Of a stretch of 64,000 nt of DNA, positions 4,600 through 62,078 are shown in pieces; within the stretch, counting starts at the first letter, position 1; each line of letters starts with the position of its first letter. The stretch is from an uncultured Erysipelotrichaceae bacterium. GTDB lineage: Bacteria; Bacillota_I; Bacilli_A; RFN20; CAG-826. A program made the position numbers and the translations under genes. The stretch spans positions 62,001 through 126,000 of the forward strand of contig CADAIJ010000004.1 of NCBI GenBank assembly GCA_902787955.1. The letters run 5' to 3'. Under the pieces are notes generated by a model. The model saw only the letters and a program-made list of their open reading frames with translations, was not told the DNA's origin and ran no database searches.

Positions 4600-6837
4600 A
4601 TGAAACAAATTGATGTCCAAATTATATTCGTCGATATAGACGGCACTCTTTTAAACCATCGTAAAGGTCACGTCTTCGACACCCTTTCTATTGAATCACT
4701 TAAGAAAGCTCAAAGAGATGGTATCAAGGTCTTTTTAAATACCGCTAGACCTTATCACACAATCGAACAAACCGGTTTATTAAAAATATTTAAACCTGAT
4801 GGTATTGTTTCCGAAAATGGTGGAGTAGTAATGATTGGAAATAAAGTTGTCTATCAAGACACAATTCCAGCTAGCTTACTTAATTCCTTATGTAAACACA
4901 CTATTGAATCAGGATTAACTATCGAATGTATTTCCACTAAAGATGCTTTTTTAGCGGCTCCAAAAACTAAAGAAGTTGATTATACTTTTGAAGTTTATGC
5001 TGAAGAAGTTCCGCCTGTTAAAGACTACCATAATAAGAAAGTTGTCTCTTGTATCCTTTTCTCAAGAAGAGATCAAGATTGGTGGCTATATCCTCTTCTT
5101 CCACGAGACTTAAAGTACAACCGTTACCACGATTGCGCGGTTAGTGTTACTTATCACGAACATAAAAAAGGTAATGGCGTTAATATCGTTTTAGAGAAAC
5201 TCGGAATTGATAAAAAGAACGCGATGGCGATTGGAGATTCCTGGGAAGATTTAGACATGTTCAATAATGTTGAATATAGTGTCGTAATGGAAAATTCCCC
5301 ACAAGAACTCCATCATTTGGCAAAATTTGTCACCAAAGATATCGAAGCTAGTGGTGTTGATTTTGTCCTTCGTTACTATGGCTTAGCAGAAGAAAAATAT
5401 CCAAAGAAAAACTGGGGTGTCTTACTTCCGGTTTCCTCTTTACCAAGTGAACACGGTATTGGCGATTTTGGTGAAGATGCTTTCCGTTTTATCGATTGGC
5501 TTAAGAAAGAGAATTATTCATATTGGCAAATTCTTCCACTTAATCCAATTGGTCCAGGTAATTCACCATATATGTCAACCTGTTCCCAAGCTATTGATAA
5601 ACGTTATATATCTTTAACTAAATTAGAAGAAATGGGATTAATTAAAAACGTCCCAGAACATTATAGCCATACAACCCGTGTGGACTTTATTGACATTGAT
5701 AAATTTAAATCCTATTGGTTAAAACTCGCTTTTGAAAAATATCGTAAGACCTCAATGAGTGAGATGAAAGAATTCGTTAAGAAGAATGAATGGGTTAAAG
5801 TTTTCGCTACATTTGTCACCTTCCAAAATATGTTTAAAGGTGAAGATGAAGATGTGACTATTCACTGGAACGAATGGCCACACGAATATCGTGATTACTT
5901 TGTAAACCACAAACTTCCTCCACGTAATAAGAAAGATGAAATTGAATTAATTGAATTTGAACAATGGATTGCTTCTAAACAATGGGAAGAATTATTAGAA
6001 TACGCCCGCTCTAAGAAAGTTAAAATCATTGCAGATATGCCATTCTATGTTGGCTTTGATTCAATTGACGTATGGCTCCATAGAGATGAATTTATGCTTG
6101 ATAGTAACTGCAAGCAAACTTCTCAAGCTGGCTGTCCACCAGATCAATTTGCCGCGGACGGACAAATGTGGGGCTCTCCAATCTATAACTTTGATAAGAT
6201 GAGAGAGAATGATTATTCATTACTCGTCAATCGTACCGGTTATTTAACTGAACACTGTGATATTTTACGTTTAGATCACTTTAGAGCGTTTGATACATAT
6301 TATGTTATTCCAGAAGGCGCAACTAACGGTCGTACTGGAGAATGGAAGATTGGTCCACGCGATAAATTCTTTGAAGAACTTTATAAAAACTATCCAAACG
6401 CTGAATTAATTGCGGAAGACTTAGGCGATTTATTCCCAAGTGTTATTGAATTAAGAGATAGACAAAATCTCCCAGGCATGCATATTGTTGAATTCACTAT
6501 CTTTGATAACTATATGCCATCTGGCGATAATATGATTGTTTATAGTGGCACTCATGATAACCAAACTTTAGTGGGCTGGATTAATTCATTATCGAATGAT
6601 AAGAAAGCTCATATCGCTTGGAGACTTCACTGCGATAACTGGGATCATCTATTGGATGCAGTTATTGATTATATTAAGAAACTTCCAAGTAAAGTTACTA
6701 TCTTCCCACTTCAAGACTTACTCCTTTATGATGACACTGCAAGGATGAACACTCCTGGAACCCTTGGTCCTCATAATTTCTCTTGGAGACTTGATGGTTG
6801 GGGTTGGACAAAAGAGATTAAAATCCATAACAAATAA
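4600..6837 (+). CDS. HAD (Cof-type) phosphatase / 4-alpha-glucanotransferase fusion
   Basis: A 745-residue cytoplasmic protein with two complete enzymes. Residues 1-265 are a Cof-type HAD hydrolase: motif I DIDGT with Asp12 and Asp14, and motif IV GDSWEDLDM. From about residue 270 (WGVLLPVSSLPSEHGIGDFG) the protein is a GH77 MalQ: nucleophile in LRLDHFRAFD (Asp559), acid/base in IAEDLGD (Glu606) and THDNQTLVGW (Asp653). MalQ disproportionates maltodextrins; HAD domains of this type dephosphorylate sugar phosphates or similar. The stand-alone MalQ in this window at 58251 is 468 residues, close to the C-terminal part here, so this is a clean N-terminal fusion. The ATG lacks a close Shine-Dalgarno; TATAAA lies 9 bp upstream. 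Confidence 0.92.
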   Translation: MKQIDVQIIFVDIDGTLLNHRKGHVFDTLSIESLKKAQRDGIKVFLNTARPYHTIEQTGLLKIFKPDGIVSENGGVVMIGNKVVYQDTIPASLLNSLCKHTIESGLTIECISTKDAFLAAPKTKEVDYTFEVYAEEVPPVKDYHNKKVVSCILFSRRDQDWWLYPLLPRDLKYNRYHDCAVSVTYHEHKKGNGVNIVLEKLGIDKKNAMAIGDSWEDLDMFNNVEYSVVMENSPQELHHLAKFVTKDIEASGVDFVLRYYGLAEEKYPKKNWGVLLPVSSLPSEHGIGDFGEDAFRFIDWLKKENYSYWQILPLNPIGPGNSPYMSTCSQAIDKRYISLTKLEEMGLIKNVPEHYSHTTRVDFIDIDKFKSYWLKLAFEKYRKTSMSEMKEFVKKNEWVKVFATFVTFQNMFKGEDEDVTIHWNEWPHEYRDYFVNHKLPPRNKKDEIELIEFEQWIASKQWEELLEYARSKKVKIIADMPFYVGFDSIDVWLHRDEFMLDSNCKQTSQAGCPPDQFAADGQMWGSPIYNFDKMRENDYSLLVNRTGYLTEHCDILRLDHFRAFDTYYVIPEGATNGRTGEWKIGPRDKFFEELYKNYPNAELIAEDLGDLFPSVIELRDRQNLPGMHIVEFTIFDNYMPSGDNMIVYSGTHDNQTLVGWINSLSNDKKAHIAWRLHCDNWDHLLDAVIDYIKKLPSKVTIFPLQDLLLYDDTARMNTPGTLGPHNFSWRLDGWGWTKEIKIHNK

Positions 6838-56488: not shown

Positions 56489-57331
56489 ATGAAAAAAGTT
56501 AGTCACGTTATTACATCTATTTCCTCGCTTTTACTTACTGCAATTTCCTTAGCAGTTTTATCTTCTTGCGGTGGTAAAGAACCTGATATGTTTGAAAAAG
56601 TCGTCACTGATGATATGGAACCTCATGAAGTTTTAAACGCTTTAAACGGTGTTATTATGCATGATAAATTTATCCCTTATAAAAACGCTTCATATTATTT
56701 TGAAAAAACTGATGCAGATCCGAATGTTAAAGGTAATATTTTCCTTTATTATACTGGTGAAAGCTATGAAGTTACTCTTTCTTCCTATGGAACAGCGGAT
56801 AACCAATTAAACGTTGAACACGTCTGGTGTCAATCAAGATTTAGATGCTATTCCAATAATCCAAATGTAAATGATTATGAAACCATTAGAGTTCCTACAC
56901 CATATAGTGATTTATATAATATCCGTCCATGCATGGGTAAAGTTAACACTGATAGAAGTAACTATATGTACGCTGAAAATACTGAAGAAGGTTCCTTAAA
57001 TCCATTTGATCCTAAAAATTATCCAGGCTGTAAAGAAGAATATAGGGGAGATATTGCTCGTATTTTATTCTATGACGCGACTAGATATTTAAAACTAAAA
57101 CTAATTGATAGCATCTCCGCTTCAACTAGTAACTCATTCGAAATGGGTCAATTAAGCGATCTTCTTGAATGGAATTTAAAATACGCACCATCCGAAATGG
57201 AAAAAAGACGTAGTGATGAAATTGAAAAGGTTCAAGGTAACCGTAATCCATTCGTTGATCATCCAGAATATGCTTGCCGTATTTGGGGTTTAACTAACGA
57301 TAAAACAAAACAAATTTGTGGAATAAAATAA
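56489..57331 (+). CDS. endonuclease I-family lipoprotein 1
   Basis: A 280-residue lipoprotein (lipobox LSSC, Cys27). The Endonuclease_1 (EndA/Vvn/NucM) pattern is present: VEHVWCQSRF with the catalytic His, DLYNIRPCMGKVNTDRSNYM (the DLxxxxP...VNxxRSN block) and YRGDIARILFYDATRY. The family cleaves DNA and RNA non-specifically with Mg2+ or Ca2+, outside the cytoplasm. Tethered at the surface it would supply nucleotides. A paralogue follows 10 bp later. Confidence 0.88.
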   Translation: MKKVSHVITSISSLLLTAISLAVLSSCGGKEPDMFEKVVTDDMEPHEVLNALNGVIMHDKFIPYKNASYYFEKTDADPNVKGNIFLYYTGESYEVTLSSYGTADNQLNVEHVWCQSRFRCYSNNPNVNDYETIRVPTPYSDLYNIRPCMGKVNTDRSNYMYAENTEEGSLNPFDPKNYPGCKEEYRGDIARILFYDATRYLKLKLIDSISASTSNSFEMGQLSDLLEWNLKYAPSEMEKRRSDEIEKVQGNRNPFVDHPEYACRIWGLTNDKTKQICGIK

Positions 57332-57341
57332 GGAGAAAAAT

Positions 57342-58250
57342 ATGAAAAGCTATAAGAAAATTATTCTATTACCATTTATCGCTTTAATGCTTACAGGTTG
57401 TAATGGTGGAAATAATCCAACAGATCCATCTAAAACAACTGATCCTACATCAGGCGATTCAGGGGACTCTATCGATCCAACTGCTTGGAATGGTTATTAT
57501 GCCTCCATTAATACCGATATGGGTGCGACCAAACTTCAATTAGAGTTACACCGTTTAATGATTAATACTCACACTAAATACTATAAGTATTCAGAAACTA
57601 GAACATACGCTAATCAAGCTGATATGGATCCATCCGATACTTCAAAATTAGTCAACTACTATACTTCTAAAAAAGTTACATCTTATCAATCTCGTGAACA
57701 CGTTTGGCCATGCGCTAACTCCAATGGTTTATGGGGTAGAGAAGGTGGACAAGATATCGGTGAAGATTATGTTGGCGGTGGTAGTGATTTCTACCATGTT
57801 AGAAACTGTGATGGTAAAGTTAACTCTAACCGTCAAAACTATCGTTTCTATGAATTTAAAGAAAACGAAGATTTTAAGCTTGCCACTGATGGTGGTACAT
57901 ATGCCTTAAAATATAATGTTGAAATGAAAAAAGCTGAGCCTGCTGATGAATGGAAAGGTGATATTGCCCGTACCGTTGTTTATCTTTATGTCCATTATGG
58001 AATGTATAAATCTGATGATGATAAAGATAGATACACCGGTTCACTTGATTTAGCAGATGTTATTTTTAAAGATTCAAGCGAATCATACACTGATTTATAT
58101 ACTAGAATTTGTAAATGGAATAGACTTGATCCAGTTAATGAACAAGAAAAATTAAGAAATACAAATGTCTATGCTCTTCAAGGTAACCGTAATCCATTTG
58201 TTGATTATCCATTTTTAATGGATCAAATGTTCGGTATTGAAAGTAACTAA
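57342..58250 (+). CDS. endonuclease I-family lipoprotein 2
   Basis: A 302-residue lipoprotein (lipobox LTGC, Cys20) with a Thr/Ser/Asp linker, then SREHVWPCANSNGLWG (catalytic His region), DFYHVRNCDGKVNSNRQNYR and WKGDIARTVVYLYVHYG. It is clearly a paralogue of the preceding gene but diverged, with more insertions, suggesting different specificity or regulation. Shine-Dalgarno AAGGAG. The next ATG begins at the base after its stop. Confidence 0.87.
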   Translation: MKSYKKIILLPFIALMLTGCNGGNNPTDPSKTTDPTSGDSGDSIDPTAWNGYYASINTDMGATKLQLELHRLMINTHTKYYKYSETRTYANQADMDPSDTSKLVNYYTSKKVTSYQSREHVWPCANSNGLWGREGGQDIGEDYVGGGSDFYHVRNCDGKVNSNRQNYRFYEFKENEDFKLATDGGTYALKYNVEMKKAEPADEWKGDIARTVVYLYVHYGMYKSDDDKDRYTGSLDLADVIFKDSSESYTDLYTRICKWNRLDPVNEQEKLRNTNVYALQGNRNPFVDYPFLMDQMFGIESN

Positions 58251-59657
58251 ATGAAATTTAAAGGCTTCCTTTGTCCAATATTTTCCTTACCAAATGAATA
58301 TGGTAATGGTGACTTCGGGAAAGAAGCCTTTTTCTTTGTTGATATTTTAAAAAAGTATCATTTTACAGCGTGGCAGCTTCTTCCATTAAATCCTATTTCT
58401 TATGGGAATTCACCATATCAGCCATTCTCTTCCTATGCTTTTGAAGAAATATATATAGATATTGAAGATTTCCAAAAGAGGGGACTTCTTATAGGTTTTT
58501 CGTTAGAAGAATACAAATTCAATGAAGAAAGAATTAACTATAATAAATCTAAAGAAGTAAGACACACAATCTATAAATACGCTTTTAAAACTTATGTTGA
58601 ACAAAATGGTTTTGATGAGCTTGATAAATTCTTAAAAAAGAATAAGCACATTAAAGAATTCGCTATCTTTATGGCTTTTAAAGATAAGAATAATCAATTA
58701 CCTTTTAATAAATGGGAAGATACTAATTACGATGATGAATTCTCTTATTTTTATTATTATCACGCCTTCTTACAAATGTTTTTATTAAAGCAATATTTAA
58801 AACTTAAAAAATATGCAAATCAAAACGGTATTAAATTAATCGGAGATATTCCATTTTATGTTGGACTAGATAGCAGTGATGTTTATTTTAATAAAAAGTA
58901 TTTCTTACTTAATAAAGATAACACTGCTAAATATATAGCTGGAGTAGCGCCAGATTATTTCTCTAAAACCGGACAAAGGTGGGGGAATCCAATCTATAAC
59001 TTTAGAGCTTTAAAAGAAGATAATTATTCTTTCTTAATCGACCGCATTTTATATTCTTCTAAGATGTATGACATCATTCGTCTCGACCACTTTAGAGCAT
59101 TCGATTCTTATTATAAAATTAAAGGAAAAGAAGAAACTGCAGAACACGGAAAATGGGTAAAAGGCCCAGGAAGTGCCTTCTTTTATGAACTTTATAAACA
59201 AAAACCAAATCTTAAACTTATCGCTGAAGACTTAGGTGATGTCACCCCAAGTGTCTTTAAATTAAGAGATAAATTCAATCTTCCTGGAATGAATATTTTA
59301 GAGTTTAACCTTATTGCAATCATAAATAATTGGGTTAGCTATAAACCTAACACCATCACATATATTGGTACCCATGATAATGACACTTTGGTGGGCTACT
59401 TTAATTCTTTAAATGAAAATGATCAAAACCTCATTCTTTCTTATCTAAAAACTGATAAAGATAATGTTTATAAAGCAATTATTAAGTATTTATTCAATAA
59501 TTATCGTTATCCAATTGTCTCAATTACCGATGTTTTATACTTGCCTAGTGAAAATAGAATTAACTACCCATCAACTTTAAATGAAGCAAATTGGTCGCTA
59601 AAACTAAAAGATTTTAATATACTTATTAAGAACTTAGAGGAACTAAACGATGATTAA
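58251..59657 (+). CDS. malQ: 4-alpha-glucanotransferase
   Basis: A 468-residue GH77 enzyme without extra domains: FLCPIFSLPNEYGNGDFG at the start, IIRLDHFRAFD (nucleophile), KLIAEDLGD (acid/base) and YIGTHDNDTLVGY. It transfers maltodextrin chains and releases glucose in the cytoplasm, so it is the second MalQ in the window after the HAD fusion at 4600. It follows an endonuclease gene with zero spacing and overlaps rimO by 8 nt (ATGATTAA). It lies outside the main glucan locus. Confidence 0.93.
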   Translation: MKFKGFLCPIFSLPNEYGNGDFGKEAFFFVDILKKYHFTAWQLLPLNPISYGNSPYQPFSSYAFEEIYIDIEDFQKRGLLIGFSLEEYKFNEERINYNKSKEVRHTIYKYAFKTYVEQNGFDELDKFLKKNKHIKEFAIFMAFKDKNNQLPFNKWEDTNYDDEFSYFYYYHAFLQMFLLKQYLKLKKYANQNGIKLIGDIPFYVGLDSSDVYFNKKYFLLNKDNTAKYIAGVAPDYFSKTGQRWGNPIYNFRALKEDNYSFLIDRILYSSKMYDIIRLDHFRAFDSYYKIKGKEETAEHGKWVKGPGSAFFYELYKQKPNLKLIAEDLGDVTPSVFKLRDKFNLPGMNILEFNLIAIINNWVSYKPNTITYIGTHDNDTLVGYFNSLNENDQNLILSYLKTDKDNVYKAIIKYLFNNYRYPIVSITDVLYLPSENRINYPSTLNEANWSLKLKDFNILIKNLEELNDD

Positions 59658-60915
59658 AGTAGGAATGATATCGATGGTTTTAGGTATGCTTAAAAGAAGC
59701 GATAATATTGAACTTGTTAACACTATTGAAGAAAGTGATGTAGTTATCATTAATACATGTGGCTTTATCGAAGCTAGTAAACAAGAATCAATTGAAAATA
59801 TTTTAGATGTTGTTTCGCAAAATAAAAAAGTTATCGCTATTGGTTGTTTACTCGAAAGATATTTAGATGAACTTAAATCCTCCATTCCGGAAGTTGCCTT
59901 ATGGGTAAAGATTAAAGATTACTCTACCTTAAACGAAAAGATTGAAGAATTATTTAATAAAGAAGTTAAGATTGAAAAAATTAATCCATTTGTTAGATTA
60001 CTAGCCACCCCTCCATATATGGCGTATCTTCGTATCTCAGAAGGTTGTAATAACTGCTGCACTTACTGTGCTATTCCATTAATTAGAGGTAAGTTCCGTT
60101 CGAGAAGTAAAGAAGATATCTTAAAAGAAGCCCATCTTTTAGCGGCCTCTAACATAAAAGAGTTAGTAATTATTTCCCAAGACACAACTAGATATGGAAG
60201 TGATTTATCTAATGGTGAGAATATCGTTGATTTACTCTCCACATTATTAGAAATTAAAGAATTTACTTCGATTAGATTACTCTATCTTTATCCAGATGAA
60301 ATCACTGATGATTTAATTGATTTAATCGCTAAGAACCCGGTTATTTCACCTTATTTTGATATTCCTTTTCAGCATTCTTCTAACCCAATTTTAAAAGCAA
60401 TGAATCGACGTGGAACTAGAGAAGAATATGAAGCGTTAATTGATAAAATTAGAACAAAGATTCCTCATGCTATATTAAGAACTACTTATATTGTTGGTTT
60501 CCCAGGCGAAACCGATGATGACTTTGTTAACTTAGTAGATTTCACCCGCAAAATGAAATTCGATCATATGGGTGCATTTAAATATAGTAGGGAAGATGGT
60601 ACTAAAGCATACGATATGCCAAACCAAATTCCTGAACCTTTAAAAGCGGGTCGCTTAAATAAAATTATGGATGTTCAAAAGAAGATATCTTATGAAAAGA
60701 ATAAGGAACATATTGGAGAAGTCATGGAAGGTATTGTTATTGGCTATAACGATAAAGCTCTTCAATATAGCTTAAGAAGTTACTGGAACGCTCCTGATGA
60801 TATCGATGGCAATATTTTCTTTAAGAGTGACCATGAATTAAAAATTGGTGAAGATGTTAAAGTAAAAATTACATCCGCTTTTATTTATGACCTATATGGT
60901 GAATTAGTTGAATAA
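59650..60915 (+). CDS. rimO: RimO-type radical SAM methylthiotransferase lacking the first Fe-S cysteine loop
   Basis: A 421-residue MiaB/RimO-family protein. The radical SAM cluster is EGCNNCCTYCAIP, followed by IRGKFRSRS. TRAM-like C-terminus and RSYWNAPDDIDG are RimO-like (target: Asp of ribosomal protein S12). The N-terminal auxiliary cluster normally needs three Cys: one in LGCxKNxxDxE, one in NTCGF and one in GCL. Here NTCGF and GCL are present, but the protein runs MIKVGMIS-MVLGML, skipping the 10-11 residues holding the first Cys. The start ATG overlaps the malQ stop by 8 nt. Activity is therefore uncertain. Confidence 0.85.
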   Translation: MIKVGMISMVLGMLKRSDNIELVNTIEESDVVIINTCGFIEASKQESIENILDVVSQNKKVIAIGCLLERYLDELKSSIPEVALWVKIKDYSTLNEKIEELFNKEVKIEKINPFVRLLATPPYMAYLRISEGCNNCCTYCAIPLIRGKFRSRSKEDILKEAHLLAASNIKELVIISQDTTRYGSDLSNGENIVDLLSTLLEIKEFTSIRLLYLYPDEITDDLIDLIAKNPVISPYFDIPFQHSSNPILKAMNRRGTREEYEALIDKIRTKIPHAILRTTYIVGFPGETDDDFVNLVDFTRKMKFDHMGAFKYSREDGTKAYDMPNQIPEPLKAGRLNKIMDVQKKISYEKNKEHIGEVMEGIVIGYNDKALQYSLRSYWNAPDDIDGNIFFKSDHELKIGEDVKVKITSAFIYDLYGELVE

Positions 60916-61133: not shown

Positions 61134-62078
61134 ATGATTAGAGTAGCCATTAAAGATGATTTAGCTGCAGTAAATGATTTATTTAAAGAAATGCTTTTTT
61201 CTATTACCGCAAATCCTAATCAATGTGGCTATACTGATAATTATTTAGAAAAATTTGTATCTAATAGTGGAGATATTATTTTTTTAGATGTAGAAGATAA
61301 TGAAATTGTAGGCTTTATATCGGTTGAACTATATAGAAATCCTGAGGAATATATTTACATTGATGATTTTTGTGTTTCAAAAAAATATAGAAATAAAGGT
61401 ATTGGAAAGTCTTTATTTTTTGAATCTCTAAATTACGCAATAAAAAACAATATTGAAACTATATATTTGCATGTAGAAAAAAATAATACCCCAGCTTTAT
61501 CTTTTTATAAAAGTTTTTGTTTTGATATTATTGAAGAAGCTGATAATAGACTTAAACTTTGTTTAAAATTACCTAAATTAACAAAATATATAGTTAAAAA
61601 CAATAATTATATTTGCCTTAAATTATTAGGAAAAGGAAAAGGTGGATATACATATAAAGCTATTGGTAATAACAATAATTTTGTAGCCTTAAAACTGATT
61701 CATCATGAGCCTTGTGATTATTATACTTTTGGAAATAAATTTGCATCGGAAATTAATGATTATAAGACATTAACTCAAATCGGAATTCCAATGCCAAGGT
61801 TAATTGATTCAGATGAAAAACAAGAGATAATTATTAAAGAATTAATTGATGGACCTACTATTTCTGAAATGCTAAGCCAAAATATAGATATTACAATATT
61901 TCTTAAACAGGTTAAAGATATAGCGTCATTACTTAAAAGTAATGACTTGAACATAGATTACTATCCAACTAACTTTATGATTAAAAATAATCAATTGTTA
62001 TATGTAGATTATGAATGCAATAACTATATGGATGAATGGAGTTTTGACTCTTGGGGCATAAACTACTGGATAAAATAG
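61134..62078 (+). CDS. GNAT acetyltransferase / kinase-like fusion protein
   Basis: A 314-residue protein. Residues 1-148 are a GNAT domain (FCVSKKYRNKGIGKSL is motif A, the acetyl-CoA loop). From about 155 there is a small kinase fold: KLLGKGKGGYTYKA (Gly-rich loop), FVALKLIHHE (Lys), and INIDYYPTNF-like catalytic loop DYYPTN with Asp and Asn, then LYVDYECN as DFG-like Asp. Order and pairing recall AAC(6')-APH(2'') bifunctional aminoglycoside enzymes, but the kinase part is much shorter and the N-lobe is reduced. A resistance or self-protection role is speculative. Shine-Dalgarno AGGAA; unusually AT-rich. Confidence 0.7.
   Translation: MIRVAIKDDLAAVNDLFKEMLFSITANPNQCGYTDNYLEKFVSNSGDIIFLDVEDNEIVGFISVELYRNPEEYIYIDDFCVSKKYRNKGIGKSLFFESLNYAIKNNIETIYLHVEKNNTPALSFYKSFCFDIIEEADNRLKLCLKLPKLTKYIVKNNNYICLKLLGKGKGGYTYKAIGNNNNFVALKLIHHEPCDYYTFGNKFASEINDYKTLTQIGIPMPRLIDSDEKQEIIIKELIDGPTISEMLSQNIDITIFLKQVKDIASLLKSNDLNIDYYPTNFMIKNNQLLYVDYECNNYMDEWSFDSWGINYWIK

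Follow-up and report, generated by a model that had tools for sequence, protein, structure and literature searches.

Introduction

RimO, the methylthiotransferase of ribosomal protein S12, belongs to the same superfamily as the tRNA methylthiotransferases MiaB and MtaB and has the same domain layout, and it differs from them by its substrate. To judge from the title of a 2007 paper by Hernandez, both clusters of MiaB are reportedly essential. All known methylthiotransferases bind their UPF cluster through a CysX35-36CysX32-33Cys arrangement, and this auxiliary cluster carries the sulfur or the methylthio group (review PMC5352715). The initial annotation of the locus described here, which stated that these enzymes use three N-terminal cysteines for their second cluster, agrees with this review. 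RimO activity can be lost without apparent cost in the laboratory, i.e., an E. coli rimO mutant has a wild-type generation time with 0% of S12 thiomethylation (PMC10002905).

Here, we analysed a stretch of 64,000 nucleotides from an uncultured Erysipelotrichaceae bacterium (hereafter the window, in which all positions are counted unless stated otherwise). It contains a rimO homologue without the segment that bears the first of these three cysteines (Table 1).

A RimO Homologue Lacking Eleven Residues

The ORF beginning at 59650 had been assigned to the RimO family. Indeed, the RimO model TIGR01125 (NCBIfam) scores 436 bits on it, above its curated equivalog cut-off of 356.95, while the MiaB and MtaB models stay at about 249 bits and do not reach their own cut-offs of 355-357. 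By phmmer, the best solved relative of the product is the T. maritima RimO (4jc0, E=2e-80), with which it shares the Pfam domain order (UPF0004, radical SAM, TRAM_2) and the cysteines of the NTCGF, GCL, and CxxxCxxC motifs. These motifs, correctly noted as remaining, correspond to Cys 37, 66, and 133/137/140. The translation is a single open frame of 421 residues (MIKVGMISMVLGMLKRSDNIELVNTIEESDVVIINTCGFIE). Its ATG directly follows a ribosome-binding-like stretch (AGAGGA), and relatives begin with MIKVGLIS or MYKVGLIS; since it matches the MIKVG start of these relatives, we consider this ATG as the true start. A missing segment that has moved or is read from an upstream start was ruled out, because a single codon (T) and then a stop lie upstream of the ATG.

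The protein reads MIKVGMIS joined straight to MVLGML, a junction where about 10-11 residues had been described as missing. The number is exactly 11, in frame, since in the alignment to relatives, residues 1-8 match and are followed by exactly 11 empty columns. The codons of the window run ATA TCG then ATG GTT TTA GGT, and the gene of the nearest RimO (genome G012, 76% identity to the window protein) has ATA TCG, CTT GGA TGC GCT AAA AAT CTC GTC GAT AGC GAG, then ATT GTT TTA GGC. We thus confirmed a clean in-frame loss of 33 bp, i.e., 11 codons, which specify LGCAKNLVDSE in the nearest relatives. The first auxiliary-cluster cysteine, which relatives carry in LGCxKN and whose loss was rightly pointed out at first, disappears with this segment, as do the KN..DSE motif and more than half of helix 1. 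Hence, the CysX35-36CysX32-33Cys set is incomplete, its second and third members being present as C37 and C66. The missing segment ranks among the most conserved parts of the family, so that the gap is not due to chance. As for the rest of the N-terminal domain, the alignment "residue for residue" holds overall and fails at one place, where an extra residue is found in the variable loop after helix 1 (MLKRSDNIEL vs. MLDAS-NFKI).

The flanks of the junction share at most 1 bp (G) of possible microhomology, too little for a long direct repeat to account for the loss. A repeat-mediated deletion was considered and set aside: beyond this single common base pair, a weak GATATCG / GATAGCG resemblance lies nearby, and no firm mechanism emerges. 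By homology, the ORF is clearly a bona fide RimO, which cannot be called a complete methylthiotransferase.

Table 1. Coordinates of the rimO homologue, its retained elements, the deletion junction, and the upstream gene
Feature	Position in the window	Strand	Evidence
malQ-like gene, 468 aa, upstream of rimO	58251..59657	+	ORF list; 8-bp overlap with the rimO start (59650-59657)
rimO, 30S ribosomal protein S12 methylthiotransferase homologue, 421 aa	59650..60915	+	ORF, TIGR01125, phmmer
Deletion junction, codon 8 (TCG, 59671-59673) / codon 9 (ATG, 59674-59676)	59673..59674	+	Codon comparison; 33 bp absent
Cys37 codon (NTCGF), second auxiliary-cluster ligand, retained	59758..59760	+	Invariant alignment column
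Cys66 codon (GCL), third auxiliary-cluster ligand, retained	59845..59847	+	Invariant alignment column
Radical SAM motif C133xxxC137xxC140 (CNNCCTYC), retained	60046..60069	+	Invariant alignment columns; PF04055, 86 bits
C-terminal TRAM domain, retained	60712..60912	+	PF18693 TRAM_2, residues 355-420, 46 bits

Distribution of the Segment Among Relatives

Alignment with relatives had been proposed as a check, and it gave a uniform answer. The motif LGC(A/S/E/C/V)KN(L/R/T)VDSE is present in all 29 RimO loci from the genus, the family, and the order, and the partial rimO genes of G008 and G018 also keep the segment. On a broader scale, the first cysteine is kept in 79 of 79 relatives from genome_contigs, ranging from Bacilli to Acidobacteria; 75 of them were scored by a strict motif and four (L114, L128, L134, and L148) by reading, and this set overlaps in part with the genus loci. 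A lineage-wide variant was therefore rejected, since relatives at all levels checked carry the cysteine.

The same picture emerged when 279 genomes of the order were scanned. Among the matches listed, the window RimO is the only one that aligns from residue 1, and every other RimO aligns from query residue 8 at the earliest, as expected where an inserted segment interrupts the alignment. The junction pattern occurs in one of 395 genomes of the class, which is the window's own, and had no match in viral_contigs. In everything searched, the variant is private to this genome.

Constraint on the Remaining Protein

Outside the gap, the window RimO departs from the consensus at one of the 74 columns that are invariant in all others and at three of the 173 genus-invariant columns, in line with the other members of the genus (0-1 and 0-6 such changes, respectively). 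A relative-rate test against G012 revealed no acceleration (19-27 unique changes against 21-41). The pN/pS-type ratios are low, but they say little because synonymous sites are near saturation. Relaxed selection could thus not serve as proof of a pseudogene, the rest of the protein showing normal constraint, and a pseudogene with such constraint is compatible only with a recent event. Hence, either the deletion would be young compared with the genus, or the protein would still be in use, and the data fit both. The perfect remaining frame and the lack of further decay are also expected from a working enzyme or from an assembly error; moreover, a deletion length that is a multiple of three is expected by chance in one case out of three.

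Dispensability of RimO in the Order

Of 150 high-quality genomes from the order, 131 gave a RimO match at a threshold of E<=1e-80. A divergent RimO, or a gene interrupted by the end of a contig, could escape this threshold. The 19 genomes without a strong match include G002 and G114, with 96% and 100% completeness, respectively. Together with the normal growth of the E. coli mutant, this means that RimO is dispensable. On the substrate side, the S12 protein of this genome (G000, L157) has the target Asp motif KDLPGVRY (RGGRVKDLPGVRYH). However, the S12 proteins of two rimO-lacking relatives, G002 and G013 (L149 and L160), have the same Asp, so that its presence is uninformative on RimO activity.

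Interpretation of the Deletion

The best explanation, to which we give a probability of about 0.68, is that rimO is at an early stage of decay, following a recent deletion by which the enzyme lost sulfur insertion. According to this scenario, an in-frame deletion of 33 bp would have removed the loop and the first helix turns in which the first cysteine of the auxiliary cluster lies (SLGCxKNxxDSE). Folding of the radical SAM half should be preserved, along with its binding of SAM and of its own [4Fe-4S] cluster. With two of three ligands left, the N-terminal half would probably be unable to hold the sulfur-donating [4Fe-4S] cluster, in which case methylthiolation of S12 Asp88 should fail. Loss of the first ligand removes a catalytic element that is essential according to published work (PMC5352715), and failure of sulfur insertion is the expected consequence of losing a ligand along with its helix; we infer cluster loss, activity loss, and fixation of the deletion in the organism. 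Of the two readings initially proposed, the inactivating in-frame loss is the better supported one, because a single genome carries the variant, the protein has no substitute cysteine, and other genomes of the order lack rimO; the variant using another ligand gained no positive support.

Early loss of a dispensable modification enzyme would be in keeping with what has commonly happened to rimO in this order, and the locus would resemble the lineage-specific pseudogenisation or loss seen in the 19 genomes counted above. It differs from a completed loss in that the gene is still open, with one segment gone, which would place it at an early stage. If the loss is real, it would provide a natural separation-of-function allele of RimO, useful but modest in scope, and a further case of S12 methylthiolation being shed in this order.

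A rather unlikely explanation is an artefact of assembly or of strain mixture, where the organism has an intact rimO and the draft assembly dropped the 33 bp. The variant is known from one assembly only, a draft of 14 contigs with 94% estimated completeness, and the rimO gene bears no other damage. On the other hand, the junction is internal to a contig of 135 kb and contains no repeat liable to collapse. Moreover, comparison with the closest sister genome, G014, over 12 kb (92.9% identity) revealed 21 gaps, all of 1-5 bp; the longest being 5 bp, the assembly is not generally prone to coding losses of 33 bp in this region. The sister sequence (97% amino-acid identity in malQ) ends at position 59272, about 380 bp before rimO, and the search of G014 for the region downstream of this position, rimO included, gave no match.

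It is quite improbable that the protein is a functional RimO in which Ser8, the backbone or a water molecule, or a partner protein provides the third ligand. Conservation outside the gap, Cys37 and Cys66 included, proceeds at a normal rate, which a young deletion fully explains. The AlphaFold model matches the holo RimO 4jc0 over its whole length (TM 0.87), but this match says little on the cluster, since the model contains no metal and the alignment behind it consisted of intact relatives. The same approach, with models built on the same relatives, gives a first helix of 6 residues (10-15) in the window protein versus 14 (12-25) in the intact G012, and an N-terminal pLDDT of 70-75 versus 91-92. 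Furthermore, no spare cysteine is available: the protein contains six (37, 66, 133, 136, 137, and 140), and the sole one beyond the auxiliary and radical SAM ligands, Cys136, is also present in intact relatives. The KN and DSE residues are gone too, and no relative has this arrangement. A natural RimO that is maintained and active, with its auxiliary cluster held by two cysteines and a non-cysteine ligand, thus seems very improbable. An active protein of this kind would call into question the three-cysteine rule for the sulfur-inserting auxiliary clusters of methylthiotransferases.

Less credible still is a protein that no longer inserts sulfur but keeps its radical SAM chemistry in a new or partial role, such as binding to the ribosome or to S12 with no modification of either. 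Its radical SAM core and TRAM domain are indeed intact, but nothing elsewhere in the sequence points to a new selection, the case concerns one genome only, and the genomic context is unchanged, beside malQ as in G008 and G017. Finally, a segment supplied in trans or another gene copy replacing rimO is hardly conceivable: nothing was found in its favour, and the genome search, in a draft that may lack about 6% of the genome, gave no second or replacement rimO and no family members other than this RimO, one MiaB, and one MtaB, the latter two retaining their own GC motifs.

Neighbouring and Related Genes

The adjacency of malQ and rimO recurs in G008 and G017 and is not found in most of the genus. 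The malQ-like gene upstream of rimO is 42% identical to another one of the same genome (G000:C4:67413-68795, i.e., 5413-6795 in the window), which lies inside a longer open frame of 753 residues. Further upstream, two adjacent ORFs with lipoprotein signals (56489-57331 and 57342-58250) have in common an EHVW ... GNRNPFVD(H/Y)P motif and are probably tandem endonuclease-I-like secreted nucleases. An ORF related to this pair is located directly upstream of rimO in G018 (L062). On the other side of rimO, the ORF 61134-62078 combines an N-terminal GNAT-like acetyltransferase part with a C-terminal kinase-like part.

The MtaB gene of this genome (G000:C1:187053-188225; L003, L168) ends with a TAA followed by a tail-like KYSVDIFGTFS, common to G014. 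A premature stop was ruled out, since the seven other MtaB of the genus that were checked (7/7) end within a residue of this point, making it an ordinary stop. The KYSVDIFGTFS tail may be what is left of a TRAM end that was once longer.
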